Shown: one piece after another, positions 26,677-40,973 of the stretch
How the letters are laid out: the number at the start of each line of letters is the position of its first letter
How positions within the stretch are numbered: the first letter of the stretch is position 1
Assembly: GCA_003163855.1 (NCBI GenBank)
Contig: PLRJ01000091.1
Coordinates: 1 to 54,587, forward strand
Source of the DNA: Bryobacterales bacterium
GTDB lineage: Bacteria; Acidobacteriota; Terriglobia; Bryobacterales; Bryobacteraceae
Direction of reading: 5' to 3'
DNA length: 54,587 nt
Translations under genes and position numbers: made by a program
Notes under the pieces: generated by a model
Database searches by the model: none
The model's input: the letters and a program-made list of their open reading frames with translations, nothing else
Told to the model about the DNA's origin: nothing

Positions 26677-28299
26677 CTAAATCTGGTGCTTCGTTGCAGC
26701 GACGAATCGAGCCTCACTCAGATCGAGCTCGTTCTCAATCTCGCGCAACGATTCGTCGGTGATCCGGCCCTCGTCTCGCATACATAAAGCGGCGTGGCGT
26801 TCAACCCCCAACAACGTGCGCGAGAGGTCCAGATACCGGAAGTGTTGCTCCGCATCGGTCCTGTTTTGTTCCTGGCTCACTCCACTTACGCTAGCGAGGC
26901 GCTGCTTGTAGTGCTGAGCCAAATCGTCGTATACCTGAACAAACTCCGATGAATCGCCCACACGCATATCCTCCAGACGTGCCTGCGCGGCTTCCAGCAC
27001 TAGCCTGCGCGCTTCCAGTGCTTCGCGTCTTGGGCCGGACTTTTCCGCAAGACCTAGCAGCCTCACAAGCGGAGAAAGTGTCAGCCCCTGCAACACAAGC
27101 GTCACGACAATAACGAAGAACGTCAAGAATATGATCAGGTCCCGATGCGGAAACGGCTTTCCATTGGCGATGGTGTCTGGAAGAGACATGGCAGCTGCCA
27201 GTGCAATCACTCCTCTCATTCCCGTCCAGCCGACCACAAACATCTGACCAAGTCCAGGACGCCTTTCATCCTGGTGAAGCAGCCGAGTACGGATGAAGTA
27301 AGCCAGATAGGCGCCAGGAAACGTCCAGAACATGCGCAGCAGGATAAGGAAGAGGCTGAATAAAACACCATACAAAATGAGGCGCCACGTGGTTACACCG
27401 CTCACGCCTGCAAGCACAGAGGGAAGCTGCAAGCCAATTAAGATGAAGACGAAACCATTCAGAGTGAACGTCAGCAGATCCCACACGGCGCGGGATTGAA
27501 GCCGCACCGAGGGAGAAAAGAATTGTGAACTCTTCCGGCCGAGATAGAGACCCGCAGCCACCACCGCAAGCACTCCCGATGCATGCACTGCCTCCGCCGT
27601 TAAATAGGCTGCATAAGAAACCAAAATGCTGAGGGCGATTTCAATGGGGCCGTCGTCAATCTGATTTTCCACCCATTCCACAATGCGCGCCAGTATCAGC
27701 CCGATTCCGACACCGCTGAAAGAAAGATAGGCCAGACGCAAAACCCCGGAACCAACGGTTGGAGTTTGACCGTTCACCACCATGATGATGGCGAACTCAA
27801 GCGACAGCAAGCCGGTCGCATCGTTCAGCAGGCTCTCACCTTCCAGCAGGTCTACGATACGCTTCGGCAACCCGATACGTTTTGCAATAGAGGTTGCTGC
27901 AATAGCGTCCGTCGTGCATACCGTGGCCCCCAAAACGCACCCGACACGCCAGTCAAAATCGGAGAAGAGCCAGGGACCGGCAACGGCGACGCATACTACC
28001 GTGAAACCGGCCAATCCAAACGCCAGCATCCCGATACTAACGAAGTTGTGCGAGAAATCGCGCCAGGACGTCACCGATGCAGCGGCATACAACAAGGGAG
28101 GCAGCACGACGAGGAAAATCAAGTCCGGTTCCAAAGTGATTCTGGGTATTCCCGGCACGAAGCCGATGATCAAACCCGCGATCACCAGGACGATCGGATA
28201 CGGTGTCTTAAACCGCCGGGCAAGCGCAGAGAACGCCGCAACGAACAACAGCAGGAGGAGAACAATCAGCTGTGCACCGTGAATGTTCGCCGTCGACAT
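26677..28299 (-). CDS. Na+/H+ antiporter, CPA1 family
   Basis: I chose the ATG at 28299 (540 residues, MSTANIHGAQ) because it follows a strong GGAAGGAG site and leads straight into the first helix; the longer frame to 28383 would overlap the upstream regulator. About twelve membrane helices are visible, with CPA1 signatures such as LVIAGLIIGFVPGIP, LPPLLYAAA, GATVCTTDAIAATSIAK (the ion-binding Asp region), LLEGESLLNDATGL and GWTGMRGVIALAAA. The last 120 residues form a charged helical cytosolic tail. It exchanges cytosolic Na+ or K+ for H+ (or the reverse) in pH and salt balance. It is 31 bases downstream of the sigma-54 activator gene. Confidence 0.93.
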   Translation of the reverse strand: MSTANIHGAQLIVLLLLLFVAAFSALARRFKTPYPIVLVIAGLIIGFVPGIPRITLEPDLIFLVVLPPLLYAAASVTSWRDFSHNFVSIGMLAFGLAGFTVVCVAVAGPWLFSDFDWRVGCVLGATVCTTDAIAATSIAKRIGLPKRIVDLLEGESLLNDATGLLSLEFAIIMVVNGQTPTVGSGVLRLAYLSFSGVGIGLILARIVEWVENQIDDGPIEIALSILVSYAAYLTAEAVHASGVLAVVAAGLYLGRKSSQFFSPSVRLQSRAVWDLLTFTLNGFVFILIGLQLPSVLAGVSGVTTWRLILYGVLFSLFLILLRMFWTFPGAYLAYFIRTRLLHQDERRPGLGQMFVVGWTGMRGVIALAAAMSLPDTIANGKPFPHRDLIIFLTFFVIVVTLVLQGLTLSPLVRLLGLAEKSGPRREALEARRLVLEAAQARLEDMRVGDSSEFVQVYDDLAQHYKQRLASVSGVSQEQNRTDAEQHFRYLDLSRTLLGVERHAALCMRDEGRITDESLREIENELDLSEARFVAATKHQI

Positions 28300-28330
28300 C
28301 GATACTCCTTCCTGGATTTCCCGGCCTTTT

Positions 28331-29434
28331 TCATGCTGATGTGAAAGCCTGATGCCGGCCCGTGCTTCTTTCCCGCAAATCATCCGCTGCGGATTCGATG
28401 CCGAGCCGCCGCATTTTAGAAAGCAGGGTCGTGCGCGCGATTCCCAGGCGTGCTGCCGCTCCGTATTTCCCTCCGACGACCCACTTCGTGTCGTTCAGGA
28501 CTTGAAGGATATGGGCGCGTGTAGCATCTTCAAGGGTCTTGCCTTCGCGAGGAAGGCCGCCTCTCTGACGCTGAAGCTGGACTGCCGGCATTTCAAATAC
28601 CGGGCCGCGAGAGACAATCACGCCGTGCTCAATAAAATTTTGAAGCTCGCGCACATTGCCCGGCCATTCATAAGCGAGCATGGCGTCCATAGTCTCTGCC
28701 GGGATATCATTCACCACCTTGTTCATCCGCTCGGCAAACTTAGCAAGGAAACGTTGAGCCAACAGGGGAATATCGTCTGCCCGGTCGCGCAGGGGCGGTA
28801 GAGAAATCGGGAATACGCTTAGACGATAGAACAAATCGGCACGAAACTCTTTTTGCTCCACCATCCGCCACAGATCGCGATTTGTTGCCGCTACCACGCG
28901 AACGTTCACACGAGAGGTTCGCGTGCTGCCCAGGCGCTCAAACGTCTGCTCCTGCAAAACACGAAGTAATTTCGCCTGAAGATCCAAGGGCATGTCGCCA
29001 ATCTCGTCCAGGAAGAGTGTGCCCCCATTCGCCATTTCGAAGCGGCCAATGCGCTGCGTCATCGCCCCTGTAAATGCGCCGCGCTCATGGCCGAACAGTT
29101 CACTTTCCAGCAAGCCGCCAGGGATGGCCGCGCAGTTTAATGTCACAAGCGCAGAATTCTGCCGGCGGCTCAGACGGTGGATCGCTTGCGCGAAGAGTTC
29201 CTTCCCGGTTCCGGTCTCCCCCTGAATCAGAACTGTCGAATCGGTGGGCGCCACAACGTTTATCTGGTCCAGCACTGATCTGATGGCTCGGCTGCTGCCA
29301 ACAATTTCATGCTGCCCATGTTCAGGCTGACCCGTTCTTGCCGTGGGAAATGGCCGTAAGTCATGCCGCTTGTCAATCCAACCCGTTGCACCTGACAGCG
29401 CGCTATCCGCGGTAATGGTAGAAGCATTTAGCAT
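28331..29434 (-). CDS. Sigma-54-dependent transcriptional activator without sensor domain
   Basis: The 367-residue protein is a bacterial enhancer-binding protein. The AAA+ domain has Walker A GETGTGKE (residues 72-79), the sigma-54 contact loop GAFTGA (119-124), and Walker B in GGTLFLDEIGD (137-147) with its arginine-rich sensor region. A Fis-type helix-turn-helix closes it (YGAAARLGIARTTLLSKMRRLGI, about 325-347). Only about 45 residues precede the AAA+ domain, so there is no receiver, GAF or PAS input, as in PspF. Its start overlaps the small upstream gene by 7 bases, and that gene is a candidate for its control. Five sigma-54-type promoters at 32.5-41 kb are its likely targets. Confidence 0.93.
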   Translation of the reverse strand: MLNASTITADSALSGATGWIDKRHDLRPFPTARTGQPEHGQHEIVGSSRAIRSVLDQINVVAPTDSTVLIQGETGTGKELFAQAIHRLSRRQNSALVTLNCAAIPGGLLESELFGHERGAFTGAMTQRIGRFEMANGGTLFLDEIGDMPLDLQAKLLRVLQEQTFERLGSTRTSRVNVRVVAATNRDLWRMVEQKEFRADLFYRLSVFPISLPPLRDRADDIPLLAQRFLAKFAERMNKVVNDIPAETMDAMLAYEWPGNVRELQNFIEHGVIVSRGPVFEMPAVQLQRQRGGLPREGKTLEDATRAHILQVLNDTKWVVGGKYGAAARLGIARTTLLSKMRRLGIESAADDLRERSTGRHQAFTSA

Positions 29435-29793
29435 CGTTTTGCTCCTGTAGAGGTGAAACCCTGGTTACTCAGTTCTGACCGCTCTTGCAAGAAGGTCTGC
29501 AGCGTTAAGTCATCCGCCAATTGAGCTAAGGTCTGAATTGTTATCTGGCGGAAGGCCTTGGCATTGTTGCTGCCCATCCAGTCTGTCGTTTCAAGGCGTC
29601 GTATCCAAAGATCCGCCGCTCTCTGGACCTTGTCGGTTCCAAACACTTCCTTTACCGCGAACAGAAATGCCCCGAGTTCTCTCAACGCCGCGTTGGCAAT
29701 TTGCGTTGCATTCAGTGTTGTTCTGGTTAGCACAGTGATGTCGCCTATCTGACAGCTGAGGCGATGGTATGAGTGACTGTCGGCAGTCGTCAT
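29428..29793 (-). CDS. Small protein of unknown function, coupled to the sigma-54 activator
   Basis: The 121-residue product has no signal peptide or membrane segment and reads as mostly helical (LNATQIANAALRELGAFLFA, AFRQITIQTLAQLADDL). I recognise no family. A strong GGGAAGGG site precedes the ATG, and the stop overlaps the activator start in ATGCTAA, so the two are translated together. Because the activator has no sensor domain, this protein could be its partner or inhibitor, as PspA is for PspF, but nothing in its sequence resembles PspA. It is the first gene of a unit that runs on through activator, antiporter and EEP protein. Confidence 0.7.
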   Translation of the reverse strand: MTTADSHSYHRLSCQIGDITVLTRTTLNATQIANAALRELGAFLFAVKEVFGTDKVQRAADLWIRRLETTDWMGSNNAKAFRQITIQTLAQLADDLTLQTFLQERSELSNQGFTSTGAKRC

Positions 29794-30012: not shown

Positions 30013-30423
30013 TTACTGCTGAATTGCGGATTGAAGCGCCTTGAAGAGAGCTTCGCGGCGAACAGGCTTGCCGAGCAGATCGATTGCTCCCCGCTTGAGA
30101 GCACGCTGCCGCGAGGAATCGTCAGAGTGAGCGGTGATAAAAATAATGGGAATCCCGCGTTTCTCGATATTCAAGTGATTTTGAAGGTCGAACCCGCTCA
30201 TCCCGGGCAGGACGACATCCAGTATCAGGCAATCGGTGTCATTCAGGCGATCGGAAGCTAGGAATTCTTCGGCTGATGCAAAAGCCTCAACATCGAATCG
30301 CACGGACCTCATCAGGCCTTTTAATGCCTCACGGATCGAACTATCGTCATCGACAATAGATATTCGTCGGGGTCGCGTGCTTGCCAGTGCCGCATCGACG
30401 GCACTCTGATCCACAGTCTTCAT
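30013..30423 (-). CDS. Single-domain response regulator (receiver only)
   Basis: The 136-residue protein is one receiver domain of FixJ type: acidic pocket IVDDDSS (residues 23-29), phosphoacceptor Asp69 in LILDVVLPGMSG, Thr in FITAHSD and Lys in LLGKPVRR. There is no output domain, so it works as a phosphate sink or through protein contact. It lies 58 bases downstream of the FixJ-like regulator and behind its kinase, so it probably takes phosphate from the same kinase. Confidence 0.9.
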   Translation of the reverse strand: MKTVDQSAVDAALASTRPRRISIVDDDSSIREALKGLMRSVRFDVEAFASAEEFLASDRLNDTDCLILDVVLPGMSGFDLQNHLNIEKRGIPIIFITAHSDDSSRQRALKRGAIDLLGKPVRREALFKALQSAIQQ

Positions 30424-30481: not shown

Positions 30482-31111
30482 CTACTTATTCTTCGTCAGA
30501 AAAGGCTTCAGTTGTTCGAACATCCTGACTAAATCGGCCAGAGACGCTGCCTCCATCTTTTGCATAACGTGGCCGCGGTGGGTTTTTATGGTCAACTCAC
30601 TGGTGCCCAGTTCGGCGCCCACCTGCTTATTAAGCAGTCCGGCGGCAACCAATTCCAGTACTTCCTTTTCGCGCGCCGTCAGCGAATTGTACTTGACACG
30701 AAGTTCCTCCGTCTGCGCGCGTCCGCTCCACGCCGCCCGGTCCTTCGCAATCGCCTCCTGAATTGCGTCCAGCAGTTCTTGACCACGGAAGGGTTTGGTA
30801 AGGAACTCAACCGCCCCGGCCTTCATGGCTCGCACGGACATGGGAACATCCGCGTGGCCCGTAATAAAAATAATTGGAATTTCGACGTTGGCCGCTGCCA
30901 AGTCCCTCTGAAATTCCAGCCCGCTCACGTCAGGTAGCCTCACATCAAGAATAAGGCAGGCTGGCGCCTTGGGGCGCTCGGCGCTCAGAAAGTCGCGCGT
31001 CGAACCGAAGGTCTCGGCGCGCAGACCCACAGAGGCAATCAGTTTTTTGACGGATTCGCGAACCGCTTCGTCGTCATCAATGACAAAAACAATGGGATCG
31101 GCGTTTTTCAC
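30482..31111 (-). CDS. FixJ-type response regulator (receiver plus LuxR HTH)
   Basis: The 209-residue protein has a receiver with VIDDDEA, phosphoacceptor Asp56 (LILDVRLPDVSG), FITGHAD and FLTKPFRG. A LuxR-type helix-turn-helix follows (LTAREKEVLELVAAGLLNKQ and SELTIKTHRGHVMQKM). It should bind DNA when phosphorylated by the kinase encoded just upstream, whose stop it overlaps by 4 bases. Relatives respond to oxygen or nutrients; the signal here is unknown. Confidence 0.93.
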   Translation of the reverse strand: MKNADPIVFVIDDDEAVRESVKKLIASVGLRAETFGSTRDFLSAERPKAPACLILDVRLPDVSGLEFQRDLAAANVEIPIIFITGHADVPMSVRAMKAGAVEFLTKPFRGQELLDAIQEAIAKDRAAWSGRAQTEELRVKYNSLTAREKEVLELVAAGLLNKQVGAELGTSELTIKTHRGHVMQKMEAASLADLVRMFEQLKPFLTKNK

Positions 31112-32307
31112 GGCGCGCTTTCAAGATCAGCAGGCAGCGTGAATTGAAGCGTCACACCGTAATCGCTATTCGCGCTGGCCCACAACCGTCCGCCATGAGC
31201 CTCGATGATTGAACGGCTAATGGATAAGCCCATGCCCGTTCCCTGAGCCTTAGTCGTAAAGAACGCGTCGAATATCCTCTTCACATCCTTTGAGTTGATT
31301 CCAATACCAGAGTCCCGTACCGAAATTAGAATGCAATCCGGGTCCTGCATCTCCGACCGAATCAGCAGACGCCGAGGCCTGTCGGCGATGACGCTCATAG
31401 CCTCGATGCCATTCTGAATCAGATTTACCATAACCTGCTGCAACTGGGTTCGGTCTCCTAAGGCAGGAGGCAGATCCATCAACAGGTCGGTTTCTATCGT
31501 AACCTCGCTTCTGGATGCCTCGGTCTGCATAATCGCCCCCACCTCACGGATAAGATCATTTACCTGCACGCTGGTCTTTTCTGGCGTGGCTTTGGTAAAC
31601 ATGGCCCGGATTTTTCGGACTATTTCGCTTGCGCGTGTCCCCTGGTGAGCGATGCTATCGACTGCGGCGCGAGCCTCCTCCAGATTAGGAGGTTCGCTGG
31701 AAAGCCATATCAGACAGGCATCGGCATTCGTCACTACTGCTGCAAGCGGTTGGTTCACTTCGTGCGAGATGGATGCCGCCAGTTCACCTAACGCACTCAG
31801 TCTGGTCACATGCGCAAGTTCCGCCTGCGCCTCGTAATACGCATCTTGTGCGCGCCTCCGCTCGGCCATCTCCGCTAAGAGTTGATCATTACTTCGCCTA
31901 AGGTCGGCGGTGCGTTCGTCCACTCTCATTTGAAGTTCGTTACGTGCCTGTTTGAGTTCGGCTTCCGCTTGCTTGCGCCACGAACTGAACCAGCCGACAA
32001 TGACGGCCGATGCGGCAAACTCAACAAACACTGGCAGAGACTGCCTGTCGACGGCAAATGAATGAATGGGAGGCGTGAAGAAATAAGCCACAGCCAAGGT
32101 GCTCAAAACGACCGCAAAACCGCCCGACCACTTTCCGCCGAACCAGGAACTGGTAACTACTGCTGTGTAGAAAAAGATATATCCGGCTGTCGACACCACC
32201 CCTTGCAATAGGAGAGTGACCGTTAGCGCGGCTGCCACAAGAGCAACGCCGAGGCCGCAGCGAAACAGCACGGAAGCTAGCGGGCGTGGACCGGGAACTG
32301 AGGGCAT
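31108..32307 (-). CDS. DUF4118 membrane sensor histidine kinase
   Basis: The 399-residue protein has three to four membrane helices in a DUF4118 (KdpD-like) sensor region up to about residue 108 (for example GYIFFYTAVVTSSWFGGKWSG). A coiled coil leads into a FixL/DctB-type HisKA with His182 (SISHEVNQPLAAV). The HATPase shows NLIQNGIEAM, VRDSGIGI and GTGMGLSISRSIIEAHGG. There is no PAS domain, so it cannot sense oxygen in the way FixL does. It is the first gene of a kinase, FixJ-like regulator and receiver unit, placed between the sigma-54 activator operon and the sortase operon, from which it diverges. Confidence 0.92.
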   Translation of the reverse strand: MPSVPGPRPLASVLFRCGLGVALVAAALTVTLLLQGVVSTAGYIFFYTAVVTSSWFGGKWSGGFAVVLSTLAVAYFFTPPIHSFAVDRQSLPVFVEFAASAVIVGWFSSWRKQAEAELKQARNELQMRVDERTADLRRSNDQLLAEMAERRRAQDAYYEAQAELAHVTRLSALGELAASISHEVNQPLAAVVTNADACLIWLSSEPPNLEEARAAVDSIAHQGTRASEIVRKIRAMFTKATPEKTSVQVNDLIREVGAIMQTEASRSEVTIETDLLMDLPPALGDRTQLQQVMVNLIQNGIEAMSVIADRPRRLLIRSEMQDPDCILISVRDSGIGINSKDVKRIFDAFFTTKAQGTGMGLSISRSIIEAHGGRLWASANSDYGVTLQFTLPADLESAP

Positions 32308-32390
32308 GGTTTCCTAACAGCGCTTTATTGAGATTACCTCGATGCGGAAATGATCGGCGCATGCTTCTGTCGCGACGTATAGCCATCAGC

Positions 32391-32410
32391 GCGTCGCACA
32401 GTTTCGTCGC
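32391..32410 (+). promoter_or_regulatory. Candidate activator-binding dyad (UAS 1)
   Basis: GCGTCG-N8-CGTCGC is an imperfect dyad ending 103 bases before the -24 element at 32514. Near-identical sites lie at 34771 and 36448 at the same distance from their own -24 elements. The centre CACAGTTT is also largely conserved. This fits a binding site for a sigma-54 activator. Confidence 0.65.
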
Positions 32411-32513
32411 GCCCACTACGCTCCTCGTGCCGTTTTCGTTGTTAGCCCTCGTAACGGCTCCTAAAGTACTGAAGGCACGAGGTGAACGCTGGACTGCCGC
32501 CGAAGGTTCGTCC

Positions 32514-32528
32514 TGGTATGCAAAATGC
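32514..32528 (+). promoter_or_regulatory. Sigma-54-type promoter for the sortase operon
   Basis: TGGTATGCAAAATGC has the GG-N10-GC layout of -24/-12 promoters (consensus TGGCAC-N5-TTGC). It sits 70 bases before the ATG at 32599, with no competing gene between. The dyad at 32391 lies at the usual activator distance. Confidence 0.65.
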
Positions 32529-32598
32529 CTCTAGAAAATCGTCAAGGCGATGACGATATCGTGACCGCCGGACAAGAGCTTTTTCAAAGGACAAAACA

Positions 32599-33309
32599 AT
32601 GAGCACCTTCTTAATCAAAACGATGGCGTTGGCTGGTCTTGCAGCATTCGCCTTCCTGCCCGGCGCCAAGGCCGACCAGCAGAATCAGAAAACCGTATTT
32701 ACATTTAGCGGCCCGGTCGAAGTCCCGGGCCAGGTACTGCCGGCTGGAACTTATGTGTTCAAGCTGGCCAACACCCATAGCCGTCACCTTGTTCAGGTGT
32801 TCAGCAAGGACGAAACCCGTTTGGTCAGCACGTTCATCGCGATACCCAATTACCGGCTTAACGCTTCAGACCAAACGATTATCAAGTTCGATGAACGCGC
32901 AGCCGGTTCGCCGCAAGCCATCAAGGAGTGGTTCTATCCCGGCAGGAATCACGGCCACGAATTCGTCTATCCAAAGACAGAGGCCATTACTTTAGCAAAA
33001 GCAAACAACACTCCGGTTCCATTTATGCCGAACGATCTCGCTCCTGACACCTTGACGCAAGACGCCAACCTGAATGGACCAGGGGTCGAAGCCTTGAATG
33101 CGGCGCCTGTCATGGCGGAAACACCGAATGGCAGCGAAGTCGAGATTGGGACAGTTTTCATGGTGACTGCTGGCCATGGCGACGGACCTGCCGAATTACC
33201 CGCGGAACTGCCCACGACCGCAACGTCGTTGCCTCTGATGGTTCTCATTGGCTCGCTGTCGCTGTTTGGCGCCGTCGGTCTTCGGATCGCTGCCCCCCGT
33301 AAGGGCTGA
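32599..33309 (+). CDS. Exported protein with a C-terminal sortase-sorting signal (LPTTA)
   Basis: The 236-residue protein starts with a signal peptide (MALAGLAAFAFLPGAKA). The domain that follows (FTFSGPVEVPGQVLPAGTY, EWFYPGRNHGHEFVYP) has no name known to me. The C-terminus is a classical three-part sorting signal: LPTTA at residues 204-208, a hydrophobic stretch (LPLMVLIGSLSLFGAVGL) and a basic end (RK). LPxTA is the recognition type of class D sortases, and a class D-like sortase gene starts 41 bases downstream, so this is very probably its dedicated substrate. The region before the motif repeats PAEL. The ATG follows AAAGGAC. A sigma-54-type promoter lies 70 bases upstream. Confidence 0.8.
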   Translation: MSTFLIKTMALAGLAAFAFLPGAKADQQNQKTVFTFSGPVEVPGQVLPAGTYVFKLANTHSRHLVQVFSKDETRLVSTFIAIPNYRLNASDQTIIKFDERAAGSPQAIKEWFYPGRNHGHEFVYPKTEAITLAKANNTPVPFMPNDLAPDTLTQDANLNGPGVEALNAAPVMAETPNGSEVEIGTVFMVTAGHGDGPAELPAELPTTATSLPLMVLIGSLSLFGAVGLRIAAPRKG

Positions 33310-33350
33310 ACGGACACGCCGGACTTCGTACGTTGCCGAGAGGTGCGCGG

Positions 33351-33941
33351 ATGAAAACCCTGAGCAACATTCTCGCCCTGGTGGGCCTGCTGGCTTTGGC
33401 CTACTGGGCTGCAATGGCTGGTAGTGCCCACCTTTACCAAGCCCGCGAGTCACTTCGCTTTGCCGGTAAATCGCGCAACGGCACTGATGTGACCCGGGCC
33501 TCCTCACCACCGGAACCTGTGCAGGGTACAAAGCGCGTGTACCCTGCCACCGGAGCCGTCTTTGGAAAACTGACAATCCCTCGGTTAGGGCTTTCGATGA
33601 TCGTTCTTGAGGGTGCCGGCAAAAGTGAGTTGAAGTTGGGTCCTGGGCACATACCTGGCACTTCCTTGCCGGGCGAGGGCGGTAACGTTGGCGTGGCCGG
33701 CCATCGAGACACTTTTTTCCGGCCTCTGCGCTTCATCCGTAGCGGTGACGCCATCAACCTGATCTCCGAGGGCGAGGAATATCGCTATCAAGTTGTCTCC
33801 ACTGAAATCGTCGAACCAGGCGATGTTCGAGTGCTCTATCCAAATGGACAAGAGACTCTGACGCTGGTTACCTGCTACCCATTTGATTTCGTGGGAGCCG
33901 CGCCTAAGAGGTTCATTATTCGAGCCACTAAGTCGGTTTAA
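33351..33941 (+). CDS. Class D-like sortase
   Basis: I take the ATG at 33351 (196 residues, MKTLSNILAL) over the TTG at 33333, because it follows GAGAGG and begins the membrane anchor (ILALVGLLALAYWAAMAG). The catalytic residues are all present: His118 in VAGHRDTFF, Cys175 in TLVTCYPFDF and Arg187 in APKRFIIRA. KLTIPRLGLSMIVLEG and GPGHIPGTSLPGEGGNVG are the usual N-terminal strand and loop motifs. It should cleave the LPTTA signal of the preceding product. It is followed by an isochorismatase-like gene 21 bases on, in one sigma-54-type operon. Confidence 0.92.
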   Translation: MKTLSNILALVGLLALAYWAAMAGSAHLYQARESLRFAGKSRNGTDVTRASSPPEPVQGTKRVYPATGAVFGKLTIPRLGLSMIVLEGAGKSELKLGPGHIPGTSLPGEGGNVGVAGHRDTFFRPLRFIRSGDAINLISEGEEYRYQVVSTEIVEPGDVRVLYPNGQETLTLVTCYPFDFVGAAPKRFIIRATKSV

Positions 33942-33962
33942 AGAAACGCAAAGGAGAATTCT

Positions 33963-34658
33963 ATGATCGGACAGAACAAACCGAAACACAATTCAAATAG
34001 CGCATTGATCGCGATACAAGACGGGATCAGCCAGGCCAGCACCTTGATAAACCCCATGGATGCTGCTCTTGTGCTGTTAAATCATCAAATGGGACTGCTT
34101 CAAACCGTGAAGGATATCAGCATAACCGAATTGCGTGCCAACACCACTATGCTGGCAAAGCTGGCGACTTTGATGAACCTGCCTGTCATAACAACAGCGT
34201 CGGTCCTGGATGGTCCGCTTGTGCCGGAAGTTCACCATGCTGCACCGCATGCTTGCCATGTGCCTCTGAAGGCTGAACTCAATGCCTGGGATAACGATAG
34301 GTTCATCGAAGCGATACGCAAGACTGGTAGGAGGACTTTGATCATGGCCGGCGTTTGGACCAGTGTCTGCGTCATGTTCCCGGCACTCGAGGCAAAAGCC
34401 GCTGGCTTCAAAGTCTATGCCGTCACGGATGCCTCCGGGGACACAAGCGAGATGGCATCTAGAACTAGCTTCGCCCGTCTCTGCCAGGCGGGTGTTGTTC
34501 CGACCACTGCTAATGGTCTCTTATGCGAACTCCAGCGAACCTGGAACTGGTCTGAAAACAAACAATTCGGGAAGCTCTACAAAATGGTTCAACCGAGCCG
34601 GCCAGTGTCCAAAGTGTCGCCGGTCCTCGATTGGCAAGCGGCGCGCTTACACTACTGA
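33963..34658 (+). CDS. Isochorismatase-family hydrolase, YcaC-like, with altered catalytic Asp
   Basis: The 231-residue protein matches the YcaC-type cysteine hydrolases. The catalytic Cys is in GVWTSVCVMFPAL, and NAWDNDRFIEAI and TDASGDTSE are family blocks. At the first strand the usual catalytic Asp (L-V-D-H-Q in YcaC) reads L-L-N-H-Q, an Asp to Asn change that would be expected to lower or alter activity. The N-terminus has about 30 extra polar residues without a signal peptide. A strong AAAGGAG site precedes the ATG. It is the last gene of the sortase operon, before a strong terminator. A role in sortase function is not known. Confidence 0.85.
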   Translation: MIGQNKPKHNSNSALIAIQDGISQASTLINPMDAALVLLNHQMGLLQTVKDISITELRANTTMLAKLATLMNLPVITTASVLDGPLVPEVHHAAPHACHVPLKAELNAWDNDRFIEAIRKTGRRTLIMAGVWTSVCVMFPALEAKAAGFKVYAVTDASGDTSEMASRTSFARLCQAGVVPTTANGLLCELQRTWNWSENKQFGKLYKMVQPSRPVSKVSPVLDWQAARLHY

Positions 34659-34685
34659 ACTCTATCTTGTTAAGTTCGGTAGTCG

Positions 34686-34718
34686 ATGGGCCAACCTGTT
34701 CAAAGCAGGTTGGCCCAT
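34686..34718 (+). terminator. Strong terminator hairpin of the sortase operon
   Basis: ATGGGCCAACCTG and CAGGTTGGCCCAT form a perfect 13-pair stem with a 7-base loop, followed by TTGCTTTT. It lies 28 bases after the isochorismatase-like stop. Confidence 0.85.
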
Positions 34719-34770
34719 TTGCTTTTGCGGCCCGCTCATGAATCTGCTCTGGTGACAGATGCCGGTCATC

Positions 34771-34790
34771 GAGTCGCACACTTTCGTCTC
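34771..34790 (+). promoter_or_regulatory. Candidate activator-binding dyad (UAS 2)
   Basis: GAGTCG-N8-CGTCTC ends 104 bases before the -24 element at 34895. Compared with the other two sites, C to A in the left arm is matched by G to T in the right arm, so the pairing is kept. This supports a real dyad rather than chance similarity. Confidence 0.65.
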
Positions 34791-34894
34791 AGGAGTGCTC
34801 CATTCCATCTCAACTGAGTTTCAGCTAGCTCGTTAAAGCCTCTAACTTATTGAATACGCGTTACGACTCTGCTTCAAGAGTGTTCCTCGCGTTT

Positions 34895-34909
34895 TGGAGA
34901 GACGATTGC
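34895..34909 (+). promoter_or_regulatory. Sigma-54-type promoter for the Pro/Gly-rich and BON genes
   Basis: TGGAGAGACGATTGC has GG-N10-GC spacing and a full TTGC at -12. It lies 54 bases before the ATG at 34949, and its upstream dyad is at 34771. Confidence 0.7.
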
Positions 34910-34948
34910 CCTTTCTCCTGTAGACGATGTTCGAAATAGGAGACGATC

Positions 34949-35722
34949 ATGACTAAACAGACGGTTCTGTGCGCGGCAGTGCTGGTGTTTCTGATGCAAT
35001 CGCTACAAGCAAATCCAGTCCCGCGCCAAGCCACTATTACCGGTGGGCCGTCCGACAGCGGAAGATGCACTGTCGAGGTCAACATTGACGGCGCGGCGGA
35101 AGTGGAAGTCTCCGGCGACCACGGCGTATTGACCACGCTGTCGGGCCAGACTGCAACTTGGCGCAGATTCCAATGCAGCGAGCCCCTGCCAGGTAACCCG
35201 ATTGATTTCCGATTGATTGCTACCTATGGAAGGGGCGCCATACGACTGCGCCAGGATCCCCGCAACGCGGGGGGCCGGGCAGTTATTCACCTGAGTGACT
35301 CAAAAGGCGGTCGCGCCGGCTACACCTTCGATCTTTGGTGGCGTCGGGCGGGGAATGGCGGCTGGGCACCTGGCCCCAGACCCCAACCGCCAGGTCATTG
35401 GCCGCGGCCAGGTGGCGGAGGCGGATGGGTGCCCCCTGGGCCGCCACAACCACCGCCGGGTCAATGGCCCGGTTCTGGCTCGTTCCCACTGGCGAGAGCA
35501 ATTCAAATTTGTCAGGATTCCGTGACCGGCCGGCTTGTTCGTGACGGCTATCCATACGTCACGTTCGAGCACACGATTCCAAACGGCTATCCGGACCGCC
35601 GCGATTCGATCAGCGGCACCGTAAGCGGCAGACGGAGGTTTGAGACTGCCAGATTTGCGTTCTCCTGCTCCATTGACATCACTTCTGAAAGGGTTCGCTG
35701 GTTTGACGTGCGGCCCTATTAG
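34949..35722 (+). CDS. Exported Pro/Gly-rich-linker protein of unknown function
   Basis: The 257-residue protein has a signal peptide (LCAAVLVFLMQSLQA). An N-terminal beta-rich domain (CTVEVNIDGAAEVEVSGDHG) is followed by a low-complexity linker near residues 130-185, built from Pro, Gly and Trp repeats (GPRPQPPGHW, GGGGGWVPPG, PPPGQWPG). The C-terminal domain has two Cys residues (IQICQDSV, AFSCSIDI) that may form a disulphide. I recognise no family. The ATG follows AGGAGACGATC. It lies 36 bases upstream of the BON-domain gene, and both follow one sigma-54-type promoter. An envelope or surface location is inferred. Confidence 0.75.
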   Translation: MTKQTVLCAAVLVFLMQSLQANPVPRQATITGGPSDSGRCTVEVNIDGAAEVEVSGDHGVLTTLSGQTATWRRFQCSEPLPGNPIDFRLIATYGRGAIRLRQDPRNAGGRAVIHLSDSKGGRAGYTFDLWWRRAGNGGWAPGPRPQPPGHWPRPGGGGGWVPPGPPQPPPGQWPGSGSFPLARAIQICQDSVTGRLVRDGYPYVTFEHTIPNGYPDRRDSISGTVSGRRRFETARFAFSCSIDITSERVRWFDVRPY

Positions 35723-35758
35723 CCGCACGTAGGTTTTATTCACAAAAAGGAGATCAAC

Positions 35759-36337
35759 ATGATCAAATACATTTGCACAATCGCAGTACTGACTGCGGGA
35801 ATGGCCTTCGCGCAGAATAATCAGGCGTCGGCGCGTATCAACAATGAAGTTCGCCACCAGTTGGCAATACTGCCGTATAACGGAGTCTTTGACAACCTGA
35901 AGTTCCACGTGGACGGTAATGTAGTAACTCTTCTCGGCCAGGCGTCGCGGCCCACTTTGAAGAGCAACGCCGAAAGGATTGTCAGGCGGATCGAGGGAGT
36001 AACGACTGTCGTCAACGAGATAGAAGTGCTACCCCTTTCCCCGAATGACGATCGTATCCGGGCGGCCGTATATACCCAGCTGTACCGAACGCCGGCGCTC
36101 CAGAAGTACACCTCTAATCGGACTGAACCTCTCCTGCGTAACAGTCTGTCGAACCGCATCAGTATTACGAATGACCCACCCATTGGCTATCACGCGATAC
36201 ACATCATCGTAAAGAATGGCAGCGTGACTCTGGAAGGTGCTGTGGCGGCAAGAGGCGACAGGGACATCGCAAATATCAAAGCAAACACGGTGTCAGGTGT
36301 CTTCTCGGTAACTAACAACCTGCGGGTCGACGGCTAA
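35759..36337 (+). CDS. Exported protein with two BON domains
   Basis: The 192-residue protein has a signal peptide (IAVLTAGMAFAQ) and two BON (OsmY-like) modules. The first is around FDNLKFHVDGNVVTLLGQ to RIEGVTTVVNEIEVL (residues 40-95), and the second around YHAIHIIVKNGSVTLEGAVA to VSGVFSVTNNLRV (145-190). BON domains bind phospholipid, and OsmY-type proteins are periplasmic and induced by osmotic or envelope stress. It has a GGAG ribosome-binding site and lies 36 bases after the Pro/Gly-rich gene. A strong terminator follows. Confidence 0.9.
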   Translation: MIKYICTIAVLTAGMAFAQNNQASARINNEVRHQLAILPYNGVFDNLKFHVDGNVVTLLGQASRPTLKSNAERIVRRIEGVTTVVNEIEVLPLSPNDDRIRAAVYTQLYRTPALQKYTSNRTEPLLRNSLSNRISITNDPPIGYHAIHIIVKNGSVTLEGAVAARGDRDIANIKANTVSGVFSVTNNLRVDG

Positions 36338-36372
36338 GTTTCGCCTGAGCTTTTTCACTCGCAAAGTGGTTC

Positions 36373-36402
36373 AAAGGGTGCGCACATTGTTGCGCACCCT
36401 TT
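36373..36402 (+). terminator. Strong terminator after the BON gene
   Basis: AAAGGGTGCGCA and TGCGCACCCTTT form a perfect 12-pair stem with loop CATTGT, followed by TCATTTG. The A/T ends could serve both strands. Confidence 0.85.
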
Positions 36403-36447
36403 TCATTTGTCGACCGCGGGCGAACTCGATGACGATGTGTAGTCGTC

Positions 36448-36467
36448 GCGTCGCAGAGTTACGGCGC
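36448..36467 (+). promoter_or_regulatory. Candidate activator-binding dyad (UAS 3)
   Basis: GCGTCG-N8-CGGCGC ends 104 bases before the -24 element at 36572, the same distance as for the other two sites. The centre CAGAGTTA resembles CACAGTTT and CACACTTT. Confidence 0.6.
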
Positions 36468-36571
36468 AAGGGGCAGTCTTCGGGCCTCGCGCATCCTCAG
36501 CAATTCTTCTCATCGCTGTCAAGTTACAGATAAGACAAGCCTGGACTAAGGCAACGCTCCTTGCATGCCCG

Positions 36572-36586
36572 TGGAACAAGAATTGC
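36572..36586 (+). promoter_or_regulatory. Sigma-54-type promoter for carbonic anhydrase and SulP genes
   Basis: TGGAACAAGAATTGC has GG-N10-GC spacing with TTGC at -12. It lies 94 bases before the carbonic anhydrase ATG. Confidence 0.7.
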
Positions 36587-36665: not shown

Positions 36666-37310
36666 ATGCAAAAACTTATCAACGGATTTCATCAATTCCG
36701 AACCACTGTTTTTCCCAGAGAGCGGCAGCTCTTTCGTTCTTTGGCCCATCATCAGCAGCCGGAGGTGCTGTTCATTACCTGTGCGGACTCGAGAGTAGTG
36801 CCGCATATGATTACGCAATCGCGACCGGGCGATCTCTTCGTATGCAGGACGGTAGGAAACCAGATACCGCAGGAAAGGGAGATGGATGACGCGGTTTCGT
36901 CCGCAATCGAATATGCAGTTGAGGCATTAGGCGTTAAACACATCGTCGTATGTGGCCACTCAGACTGTGGCGCCATGAAGGCGCTGCTAAGGCCCGAGCG
37001 AGTGGCGAAGTTGCCAGCAACAGCCGCCTGGCTAAGGCATGCCTCGGCGGCGAAATCATTGGTGATGCACCAACATCAAGACGCCAACGAAAACGCTGTG
37101 CTGCGTCTGCTGGAAGAAGAGAATGTGCTGGTGCAGGTGGAGAATTTGAAGACTCACGCTTCGGTGGCATCCCGGCTGCGGAATGGCGACCTGCAATTGC
37201 ATGCATGGTTTTATGAAATTGCTTCAGGTGAGATCTTGACTTACAACCTGGACGAGGAATGCTTTTCCCCGCTGGCTATGGCCAAAACGCAACTGGGAGG
37301 TGCCGCATGA
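36666..37310 (+). CDS. Beta-class carbonic anhydrase
   Basis: I start at the ATG at 36666 (214 residues, MQKLINGFHQ), which follows AAAGGAG; the longer frame to 36639 has no support. Zinc ligands and the Asp-Arg dyad are seen in FITCADSRVVP (Cys, Asp, Arg) and VVCGHSDCGAMKAL (His, Cys). PGDLFVCRTVGN and DDAVSSAIEYAVEALG are further family blocks. It interconverts CO2 and bicarbonate in the cytosol. The stop overlaps the SulP start as ATGA, so the enzyme and transporter are made together. This pairing implies bicarbonate uptake or pH control, apparently under sigma-54. Confidence 0.95.
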   Translation: MQKLINGFHQFRTTVFPRERQLFRSLAHHQQPEVLFITCADSRVVPHMITQSRPGDLFVCRTVGNQIPQEREMDDAVSSAIEYAVEALGVKHIVVCGHSDCGAMKALLRPERVAKLPATAAWLRHASAAKSLVMHQHQDANENAVLRLLEEENVLVQVENLKTHASVASRLRNGDLQLHAWFYEIASGEILTYNLDEECFSPLAMAKTQLGGAA

Positions 37311-39271: not shown

Positions 39272-40594
39272 TTAGCGCAGGGAACGGAACGCCGCGCGAA
39301 GTTCGCGGGCAAAAAGTTCCGGCTGTTCCCAGGCTGCGAAATGGCCACCCTTATCAACTTCGTGGAAATAGATCAGATGTGGATAGGCACGCTCGGTCCA
39401 GCTTTTCGGTGCACGGTAGATCTCACCGGGAAAAACGGTAACAGCCACCGGGATTGAGATCTCCGAAGTCTTCTGTGCTTCGGCGCTGAAGTTGTTATTG
39501 TTGTTCTCCCAGTAGAGTCGCGCGGAAGAGACAGCACTGTTTGTCAGCCAGTAAAGCGTAATGTCATCCAGCATTTCATCCCTGGTGAGTGACCGTTCGG
39601 GCTCGCCATCGCTATAGGTCCATTGGGCGAACTTGTCATACATCCAGGCGGCCAGGCCAACGGGCGAGTCACTCAGTCCATACCCAACGGTTTGTGGCCG
39701 AGTCACCATCATTGCGCCATATCCAGCGTTCTTGCTGAAGAATGTGTTCAAAGATTCGAACGCGGCCTTCTCCTGCTCGGACAGTCCGGACGGCGCTGGG
39801 CCACCATTGCCCAGAGCTTTTGCCAGTTCGGCCGGTACGGTCGCGGGCATGTTCACGTGGATTCCGGCCAGACCTTGCGGTGCCTGCCGCGCCATGGCGC
39901 CGGCAATTACAGAACCCCAATCACCCCCCTGAGACACGTAGCGCTTGTATCCCAACCGATTCATCAGTTCTGCCCATGCGTGCGCAATTCGGTCGGGGCC
40001 CCAACCCGTAGTCTGCGGTCTGGAAGAAAAGCCATAGCCGGGCATGGATGGAATAACAACGTCAAATGCATCTTTCGCTGCTCCGCCGTAAGCAGTTGGA
40101 TCGGTAAGCGGCCCAATTGCCTTCACAATCTCTAGTGGTGAGCCTGGCCAGCCGTGGGTAATGAGCAGCGGCAAAGCATTAGGATGCCGCGAGCGGACGT
40201 GGATGAACTGAATATCCTGTCCGTCGATAGTGGTGACGAACATGGGAAGTCCGTTCAGCTTCGTTTCGATTTTGCGCCAATTGTAGTCCGTGCCCCAGTA
40301 CTTCACCAGACCCTGAAGCTTCTCAAGCTTGACTCCTTGCGATTGATCGGCCACTGTTTCTTTGTCGGGCCATCTTGTTGCCGCAATGCGCATTCGTAAG
40401 TCGGTGAGTTGTTCTTCGGCAACATGGATCTGGAAGGGGCGAATCTCGGAAGTCCGGCCGCTTGCTTCCTTGGCATTCGACCCGTTGCGCGCTGCGCTGC
40501 TGCCCTCGTCTGAAAGGTTCTGGGCATAGCTGGGAAATGCAATTACCGCCAACACCAGTGCTGCCTTGCAGGATGTTTCTTCGAATTTGTTCAT
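39272..40594 (-). CDS. Exported epoxide hydrolase (EHN domain), paralogue 1
   Basis: The 440-residue protein has a signal peptide (AALVLAVIAFPSYAQ). The N-terminal EHN domain (RPFQIHVAEEQLTDLRMRI, WGTDYNWRKIETKLN) is followed by an alpha/beta hydrolase fold. The oxyanion motif is THGWPGS, the Asp nucleophile is in SQGGDWGSVIA and the His base is in [15 protein letters not shown]. This is the juvenile-hormone/microsomal epoxide hydrolase class, which opens epoxides to diols. It is highly similar to the divergent gene at 40974, so the pair arose by duplication. A sigma-54-type promoter precedes it at 40653-40667. The periplasmic substrate is unknown. Confidence 0.92.
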   Translation of the reverse strand: MNKFEETSCKAALVLAVIAFPSYAQNLSDEGSSAARNGSNAKEASGRTSEIRPFQIHVAEEQLTDLRMRIAATRWPDKETVADQSQGVKLEKLQGLVKYWGTDYNWRKIETKLNGLPMFVTTIDGQDIQFIHVRSRHPNALPLLITHGWPGSPLEIVKAIGPLTDPTAYGGAAKDAFDVVIPSMPGYGFSSRPQTTGWGPDRIAHAWAELMNRLGYKRYVSQGGDWGSVIAGAMARQAPQGLAGIHVNMPATVPAELAKALGNGGPAPSGLSEQEKAAFESLNTFFSKNAGYGAMMVTRPQTVGYGLSDSPVGLAAWMYDKFAQWTYSDGEPERSLTRDEMLDDITLYWLTNSAVSSARLYWENNNNNFSAEAQKTSEISIPVAVTVFPGEIYRAPKSWTERAYPHLIYFHEVDKGGHFAAWEQPELFARELRAAFRSLR

Positions 40595-40652
40595 AAGTGA
40601 TTCCTTTTCTGAAGCGAACGTATTTTTGATTCGCTAGTCAGGAAGAATAAGG

Positions 40653-40667
40653 GCAATTGTGGCTCCA
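40653..40667 (-). promoter_or_regulatory. Sigma-54-type promoter for epoxide hydrolase 1
   Basis: Read on the minus strand, TGGAGCCACAATTGC has GG-N10-GC spacing and TTGC at -12. It ends 58 bases before the start codon at 40594. Confidence 0.65.
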
Positions 40668-40823
40668 AATACACGCCAAAAGGCTCATATTGCAATCCAT
40701 GCCGGTCTTCAACAGGTTAGAGCCACTAACCCAAACGGCCAGGTGAATTGGCAGCCGCCGGGAGATCAGAGGGTGCGGTCAGCAAGGCAGCATCTTCGAC
40801 ACTTCGCGAACAACTTCGACACT

Positions 40824-40844
40824 TTGAGACGTGCGATCGCTCAA
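40824..40844. promoter_or_regulatory. Candidate shared activator site in the epoxide hydrolase gap
   Basis: TTGAG and CTCAA bracket this 21-base imperfect dyad, which includes the half-site GAGACG, the reverse complement of the right arm of UAS 2. Just upstream, CTTCGACACTT occurs twice (40793-40803, 40813-40823), resembling the CACACTTT centre of the other sites. Weaker evidence than the three aligned dyads. Confidence 0.4.
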
Positions 40845-40910
40845 GTACGACTCACCGTAAAGCGTTGATATCCGGACTGGATACGGGCGCCCGCGCGCTC
40901 CACACACCGT

Positions 40911-40925
40911 TGGCCTTTGGCTTGC
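40911..40925 (+). promoter_or_regulatory. Sigma-54-type promoter for epoxide hydrolase 2
   Basis: TGGCCTTTGGCTTGC is followed by A, the best match to TGGCAC-N5-TTGCA in the window. It lies 49 bases before the ATG at 40974. Confidence 0.75.
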
Positions 40926-40973
40926 ACTTAATTGGCGCGACATCCAGCTAGTCAATTCGAAAGGACTTACATC

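Follow-up and report, generated by a model that had tools for sequence, protein, structure and literature searches.

Three operons in the window analysed here, the 54,587-nucleotide contig PLRJ01000091.1 of a Bryobacterales bacterium (assembly GCA_003163855.1), each begin at a sigma-54 promoter, and before each promoter lies a copy of one conserved operator at a nearly fixed distance. The operons encode an LPxTA-type surface protein with a sortase and a YcaC-like hydrolase, a proline/glycine-rich secreted protein (pro257) with a BON-domain protein, and a carbonic anhydrase with a SulP transporter. We consider it likely that the operators are tandem 39-base-pair (bp) enhancers for the sigma-54 activator encoded at 28331-29434, that DNA looping assisted by IHF or HU joins activator and promoter, and that the three operons form one envelope and ion regulon. 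The conserved sites, the sigma-54 elements, the hairpins between operons, the phasing of operator and promoter, and the shared position of an IHF-like box are all present in the sequence and are described in turn below.

The original prediction for this DNA had described a 20-bp dyad before each of three sigma-54 promoters. The three 20-mers (32391-32410, 34771-34790 and 36448-36467, all on the plus strand) have the sequences and coordinates that it gave, and recounting from the dyad end to the T of TGG returned the same distances of 103, 104 and 104 bases, with one more in each case to the GG. The promoter elements are as follows.

32514-32528, plus strand: sigma-54 -24/-12 element 1, TGGTATGCAAAATGC, TGG-N9-TGC
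34895-34909, plus strand: sigma-54 element 2, TGGAGAGACGATTGC, TGG-N9-TGC
36572-36586, plus strand: sigma-54 element 3, TGGAACAAGAATTGC, TGG-N9-TGC

The form GG-N10-GC (-24/-12) is present at three of three window sites and at all ten sites gathered in this work, four of which, in relatives (h1, h2, k1 and k2), have it by search design. Gene starts lie 54 to 94 bases past the TGG at each window site, and the genome encodes RpoN (PF04552, 196.9 bits, above cut-off).

Alignment of the window sites with those of a same-genus relative (locus L033) reveals that the dyad is preceded, at a distance of exactly 19 bases, by an extra block, GYGAC or ATGAC. The predicted dyad thus seems to form the half nearer the promoter of a 39-bp operator, TGAC-N8-GTCA-N4-GTCG-N8-CGNC, of which the window contains three copies.

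32372-32410, plus strand: operator 1, upstream half GCGACG... followed by the dyad at 32391-32410, upstream of the LPxTA/sortase operon
34752-34790, plus strand: operator 2, containing the dyad at 34771-34790
36429-36467, plus strand: operator 3, containing the dyad at 36448-36467

A weaker second dyad seems to be centred 20 bp upstream of the main one: symmetry over the ten sites is 0.70 at the main centre and 0.46 at the upstream centre, the two being 20 bp apart. GTCG and CG-N-C occur in 10/10 sites (again by search design in h1, h2, k1 and k2), while the TGAC arm keeps three or four of its four bases in seven of the ten and the GTCA arm does so in five. It had also been argued that a paired base change in the second site, one in each arm, reveals selection on a dyad. 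This change is real between sites 1 and 2, but positions 2 and 19 are complementary in only 6/10 sites, and position 4 is T in 10/10 with T, G or A as its partner. The compensatory-change argument is weak, since a protein can recognise a site whose arms do not pair and since pairing is lost in 4/10 sites; it was dropped as evidence. Selection on the element itself is upheld by shuffle tests and by recurrence in relatives.

Could GC-rich 20-mers resemble one another to this degree by chance? The loose pattern GNGTCG-N8-CGNCNC matches four times in the window against 0.98 expected, and 3 of 100 shuffles reach four, which is marginal and would fit a chance origin, as would the background frequency of looser versions across the genome. 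However, the best summed pairwise 20-mer identity of the three 200-base upstream regions is 48/60; shuffled sequences reached at most 41 when any offset was allowed and 34 when offsets had to match (±1), so that 0 of 300 shuffles attained the observed value in either test. The centre of the dyad is also conserved, beyond the loose arm pattern. Together with the recovery of sites in L033 and the matched position of the IHF-like box, the shuffle tests make chance resemblance a very remote explanation; we regard it as excluded for the sites of the window (three) and of L033 (two), a judgement that does not extend to h1, h2 or k1 taken singly.

A genome-wide count gave a different picture from the promoters themselves. 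In the source genome (89% complete), a tightened pattern built from these same three sites and allowing at most one mismatch occurred three times, always at the window sites with zero mismatches, while its backwards control occurred seven times; at up to two mismatches it stood at background level (51 against 77 for the control). Genome-wide enrichment of the motif is therefore absent, and exact copies are confined to these three promoters. Of the enrichment anticipated in the prediction, what holds is that copies at the sigma-54 promoters of the regulon exceed chance, whereas loose versions lie at chance level across the genome. Since enrichment was null, it was replaced as the main test by co-location and recovery in relatives. 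A class-wide search of 399 genomes found matches in 19, and the source genome alone has three. At four LPxTA paralogue loci elsewhere in the source genome, one scan found no dyad with a sigma-54 element before the LPxTA gene.

Recovery in relatives is clearest in the same-genus genome G012, in which the regulatory cluster is present in L033 with a different gene order. A matrix made from the three window sites alone and run over 20 kb of this locus gave top scores of 21.5 and 19.9, followed by 18.0, and the first two ranks are the sigma-54 promoters of the homologous LPxTA and pro257-BON operons, with operator-promoter gaps of 94 and 92 bases. The third (L033:7621) was rejected, as by eye it is the terminator hairpin behind the BON gene. 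The dyad is thus conserved before homologous operons, as foreseen: before LPxTA and pro257-BON in L033, and in weaker form before LPxTA in L138 and BON in L302. This recovery also bears on whether the three window promoter regions are simply recent duplicates that inherited motif and spacing without selection. The spacers of operons 1 and 2 are weakly similar when gaps are allowed (0.02 of shuffles), as duplication would predict, but the shared IHF-like box contributes to that similarity, spacer identities without gaps are only 0.20, 0.24 and 0.31, and for the two remaining pairs the gapped similarity does not exceed chance (0.49 and 0.23 of shuffles). Because L033, in another species, keeps the element and not the spacers, we hold recent duplication to be highly improbable.

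Kinase and activator genes were sought in 237 family genomes, and a kinase search of named genomes took in the best 80 of 587 relatives. Near full-length kinase orthologues were found among the 237 in G012, G336 and G526, whose activators are 71-74% identical to that of the window with the same recognition helix bar one I-to-L change. A composite pattern (dyad core, 78-108 bases, TGG-N9-TGC) was run on five genomes, where its matches were reviewed singly, and weaker dyad copies were found before sigma-54 elements in two further genera with the same activator. In G526, two of four matches lie on the 9.8-kb activator contig (P about 3e-6, assuming 1.5 matches per genome): h1 before an LPxTA gene at a gap of 80, and h2 before an SDR gene at a gap of 103. 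In G336 there are three matches, of which one is on the activator contig (P about 0.009) and one was set aside; k1, on that contig, precedes a gene for a secreted protein without a Pfam match (gap 92), and k2 precedes a sodium/proton-exchanger-family gene (gap 93). Matches that overlap open reading frames wholly or partly were dropped (G000:C23 and C188, G012:C25 and C390, G336:C208, G526:C186), as were two with no convincing downstream gene (G000:C126, G526:C364). A 39-bp matrix built from five sites, three from the window and two from L033, ranked a further site, k3, first in L295, the 3.1-kb locus around k2 (13.8 against 11.8 for k2). The sequence of k3 is TGAC-N8-GTCA-N4-GTCG-N8-CGGC, that is, two dyads with centres 20 bp apart; the sigma-54 element TGGAGGCATGATTGC follows 48 bases later, and downstream lies a homologue of the window's BON gene (39% over 186 amino acids).

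The ten operator-promoter gaps (103, 104, 104, 94, 92, 80, 103, 92, 93 and 48) fall in near-helical steps. At 10.5 bp the phasing is R = 0.76 with p 0.0014, a value to be read with the partial dependence of orthologous promoters and the unproven status of h1, h2, k1 and k2. At 10 bp p is 0.03, at 11 bp R is 0.90, and a corrected scan of periods from 9.8 to 12 bp gives p 0.0008. Counting the window trio as one value leaves p 0.0067 at 10.5 bp, grouping the promoters to five values leaves p 0.02, and the nine sites without k3, set against the narrower range of the composite search, give p 0.0007 at 10.5 bp. The constant spacing reported at first is therefore a property of this genome, since elsewhere it runs from 48 to 103. 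The companion idea of one activator working from one helix face fares well, in that the gaps step by about one helical turn and the element recurs before homologous operons.

Between operator and promoter, each window spacer carries an IHF-like box on the minus strand.

32462-32474, minus strand: IHF-like box 1, CTTCAGTACTTTA, 39 nucleotides above TGG
34843-34855, minus strand: IHF-like box 2, ATTCAATAAGTTA, 39 nucleotides above TGG
36520-36532, minus strand: IHF-like box 3, TATCTGTAACTTG, 39 nucleotides above TGG

Scanning with WATCAA-N4-TTR placed the best box of every window promoter on this strand, 39 bases above TGG, with a summed score of 21/27 that exceeded 500 of 500 shuffles; nine promoters tested jointly gave p 0.002. 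The wider WATCAR-N4-TTR, which was chosen after the first scan, scores 23/27 at the shared position (0/3000 shuffles), and 30/36 when the L033 LPxTA promoter is added (0/3000). In relatives, k1 has a box at 38 and h1 at 27. The source genome has four genes of the shared HU/IHF family, each of which may encode HU or IHF.

Several observations weigh against this interpretation. The composite pattern matches in 169/237 family genomes, with similar control columns (unsummed), and therefore only co-location counts. The tandem pattern behaves likewise: it gives 30 matches in 25 of the 237 genomes against 37 in the control; seven of the 30, G012:C348 among them, fall in the four activator genomes. 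As both patterns are common family-wide, the sites are not identified by sequence alone. Over 5.5 million positions, comprising all loci in the analysis, four unrelated stretches outscore k3 by the 39-bp matrix, with scores of up to 20.9, at least three of them in loci fetched by motif search; background reaches 11.3 in L175. Because of this background, the case for k3 draws equally on its score and on its setting in a 3-kb locus with a sigma-54 element and a BON gene. Sites h1, h2 and k1, which remain weaker than the others, lack the upstream half, and k2 overlaps two open reading frames, the very ground on which other matches were dropped; k2 was retained for the antiporter gene behind it, and the selection is thus uneven. 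G004, with an activator 71% identical but a different helix, has no composite match in a genome 79% complete. The period that fits best lies closer to 11-11.5 bp than to 10.5 bp. Singly, the window boxes are non-significant (0.32, 0.12 and 0.09 of shuffles), so that the shared position carries the evidence; the boxes of k3 (15) and of g2, a site in L033 (28), are tied with other candidates, and in h2 and k2 no box is in phase.

Some further occurrences were noticed. The top 39-bp matrix score outside the known sites, 20.9, belongs to L330 (G353:C586:3890-3925). An identical 36-base element of tandem-pattern type is found at L175 12007-12045 and at G471:C402:10354-10389, in L175 near a sigma-54-like site and in G471 on a contig that also encodes a related kinase and activator. 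G478 has eight composite-pattern matches, the highest count noticed among family genomes. Distant LPxTA-sortase loci (L086-L104) yielded no convincing operator in a scan.

A fundamental question is which protein reads the operator. Upstream of operon 1, on the opposite strand, lies a cluster of regulatory genes.

31108-32307, minus strand: histidine kinase with a DUF4118 sensor
30482-31111, minus strand: LuxR/FixJ-type response regulator
30013-30423, minus strand: stand-alone receiver domain protein
29428-29793, minus strand: small protein of 121 amino acids between receiver and activator, no Pfam or NCBIfam match
28331-29434, minus strand: sigma-54 activator (bacterial enhancer-binding protein, bEBP), AAA+ domain with GAFTGA, Fis-type helix-turn-helix (HTH), no receiver domain; proposed operator reader
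26677-28383, minus strand: Na+/H+ antiporter, next gene after the activator

From co-occurrence, we infer that the local activator reads the sites. It scores 246.5 bits against PF00158 and 20.9 bits against PF02954, just under the cut-off of 22, and GAFTGA was found. The small 121-amino-acid protein has a partial match in L033 (54% over 65 amino acids).

One alternative hypothesis is that the LuxR/FixJ-type regulator (30482-31111) binds the operator and activates or represses the three promoters, the sigma-54 activator being recruited elsewhere or acting from solution. This regulator belongs to the same cluster, is retained along with it (81% identity in L033), and shows a small consistent helix difference between two groups of clusters (RG versus RA). 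However, L142 and L145 contain orthologous kinase, regulator, receiver and activator genes along with sortase genes, and there the recognition helix of the regulator is nearly unchanged (SELTVKTHRAHVMEK against SELTIKTHRGHVMQK), while the activator helix is clearly different and the promoter repeat, read by eye, differs too, so that the site seemingly follows the activator. Moreover, the tandem dyad lies 48 to 104 bases before its sigma-54 element, where enhancers are usually located. For these reasons reading by the LuxR-type regulator appears unlikely. By eye, the sigma-54-like promoters at L142 15410 and L145 7610, 13514 and 14850 share another tandem repeat, CTGA...TCAG, at a shorter distance from the promoter; it may be a related operator that serves a related activator.

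Alternatively, another sigma-54 activator of the genome could read the operator, with the local one a bystander. A first look gave 28 candidate activators in the genome (eight scored), and a second sigma-54-like promoter type lies nearby at 40667/40911. Set against this, among the genomes whose composite matches were reviewed singly (the four activator genomes and G004, with none in G004), convincing sites are confined to the four family members in which orthologues of both the local activator and the kinase are encoded, and the sites of the window, G012 and G526 share a contig with both genes. A different activator is accordingly a still less probable reader than the LuxR-type regulator. The second promoter type lies in the region between two epoxide-hydrolase genes (40594-40932), which contains divergent sigma-54-like elements, TGGAGCCACAATTGC (40667, minus) and TGGCCTTTGGCTTGC (40911, plus), and a sequence, TTCGACACTT, that occurs twice, 20 bases apart, at 40795 and 40815; the 39-bp operator is absent from this region. 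In L175, near a related activator cluster, an epoxide-hydrolase gene follows a sigma-54-like element that has a comparable CGACACTTCGAG stretch.

If the local activator does read the operators, how would it reach the polymerase? In the model that we favor, activator dimers would sit on the same DNA face at the two dyads, whose centres are separated by 20 bp, or two turns, and would contact sigma-54 RNA polymerase at the -24/-12 element via looping. An IHF- or HU-like protein would bend the DNA at the box 39 bases above the promoter, and the fixed spacing would keep all three elements (enhancer, bend and promoter) aligned on the helix. Control over the timing of the activator probably falls to the FixLJ-like kinase and regulator together with the stand-alone receiver. 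The binder, the looping, the signal and the physiology in this model are inferred. Its output would be the LPxTA surface protein and sortase, the BON protein, and the carbonic anhydrase and SulP transporter, from the following genes and hairpins.

32599-33309, plus strand: secreted protein of 236 amino acids with a C-terminal LPTTA-type sorting signal, seen in the sequence; no family match, homologues in relatives
33354-33941, plus strand: class D-like sortase, PF04203, under the NCBIfam class D cut-offs
33963-34658, plus strand: YcaC-like isochorismatase-fold hydrolase, under the YcaC cut-off
34685-34719, plus strand: intrinsic-terminator-like hairpin, 16-bp stem, behind operon 1
34949-35722, plus strand: secreted proline/glycine-rich protein (pro257), no family match, homologue in L033
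35759-36337, plus strand: BON-domain protein, PF04972
36373-36402, plus strand: intrinsic-terminator-like hairpin, 12-bp stem, behind operon 2
36666-37310, plus strand: beta-carbonic anhydrase, PF00484
37259-38842, plus strand: SulP family transporter, PF00916

The sortase is named class D-like because it falls below the NCBIfam class D cut-offs (SrtD 139.6 against 140; class D 125.5 against 165). Homologues of the BON protein are found in L033 (53% over 191 amino acids) and L302 (39% over 186). Sites 2 and 3 lie downstream of the terminator-like hairpins of the preceding operons; the region has nine such hairpins, a number that does not stand out from shuffles (mean 7.4), but the stems at 34685-34719 and 36373-36402 are the longest. 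Family knowledge alone suggests, from the DUF4118 kinase, antiporters, carbonic anhydrase, SulP and BON proteins, a response to envelope or ion/pH stress.

More tentatively, the system is possibly a split sigma-54 response regulator in a Gram-negative lineage, in which an activator without a receiver would be controlled in trans by the neighbouring stand-alone receiver and would act on a sortase regulon, with enhancer, bend site and promoter kept in register over 48 to 104 bases while spacers evolve by whole turns. The native series of gaps (48, 80, 92-94 and 103-104), in which phasing was seemingly kept while distance changed, makes this enhancer geometry testable. No entry in the literature searched, with most subscription journals outside it, pointed to a sigma-54/sortase regulon of Acidobacteria. 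The regulon and operator are, on good evidence, a new case of a type of bacterial gene switch already known.

NtrC and NifA bind inverted repeats that lie roughly 100 bases ahead of sigma-54 promoters, a placement like that seen here, with the consensuses TGT-N10-ACA and TGCACC-N5-GGTGCA, both of which occur in 0/10 operators. PspF is an example of a bEBP without a regulatory domain, and the window activator resembles it in having AAA+ plus HTH only; the window cluster differs in that it also encodes a two-component pair and a receiver protein that stands alone. The absence of the regulatory (R) domain from some bEBPs has been described (PMC7175178). Multiple activator subsites upstream of a sigma-54 promoter are likewise described for NorR and CbrB, those of CbrB lying on the same DNA face with centres 20-25 bp apart; CbrB subsites are non-palindromic and variably spaced, and NorR has three sites, whereas here there are two dyads 20 bp apart with unlike sequences (PMC6296734). 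For DVU2894/FlrA, an inverted repeat was also predicted by comparison as the activator site, but its GTCA-N6-TGAC has the opposite arm order and a different spacing from TGAC-N8-GTCA and GTCG-N8-CGNC (PMC4641369), and it occurs in 0/10 operators. None of the known sites tested (NifA, NtrC, NorR, FlrA-like) fits the ten operators.

The closest parallel is the PEP-CTERM system PrsK/PrsR, described for Proteobacteria, in which a motif averaging 63 bases (32-92) upstream of a sigma-54 element precedes surface-protein genes of a sorting system, and a kinase with a Fis-type sigma-54 activator is the candidate reader. Its motif ends in TTTACA, found in 0/10 operators here, PrsR has its own receiver domain while the window activator has none, and EpsH sorts there in place of a true sortase (PMC1569441). 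Because TTTACA is absent and the window activator scores 325.4 bits against PEP_resp_reg, short of the cut-off of 502.6, the system is not a PEP-CTERM PrsK/PrsR member. By analogy, it would work like the PEP-CTERM motif 1/motif 2 system without belonging to it, and just as PrsK/PrsR is tied to PEP-CTERM, the present findings supply a candidate activator and operator for a sortase/LPxTA system of surface proteins in a Gram-negative lineage.

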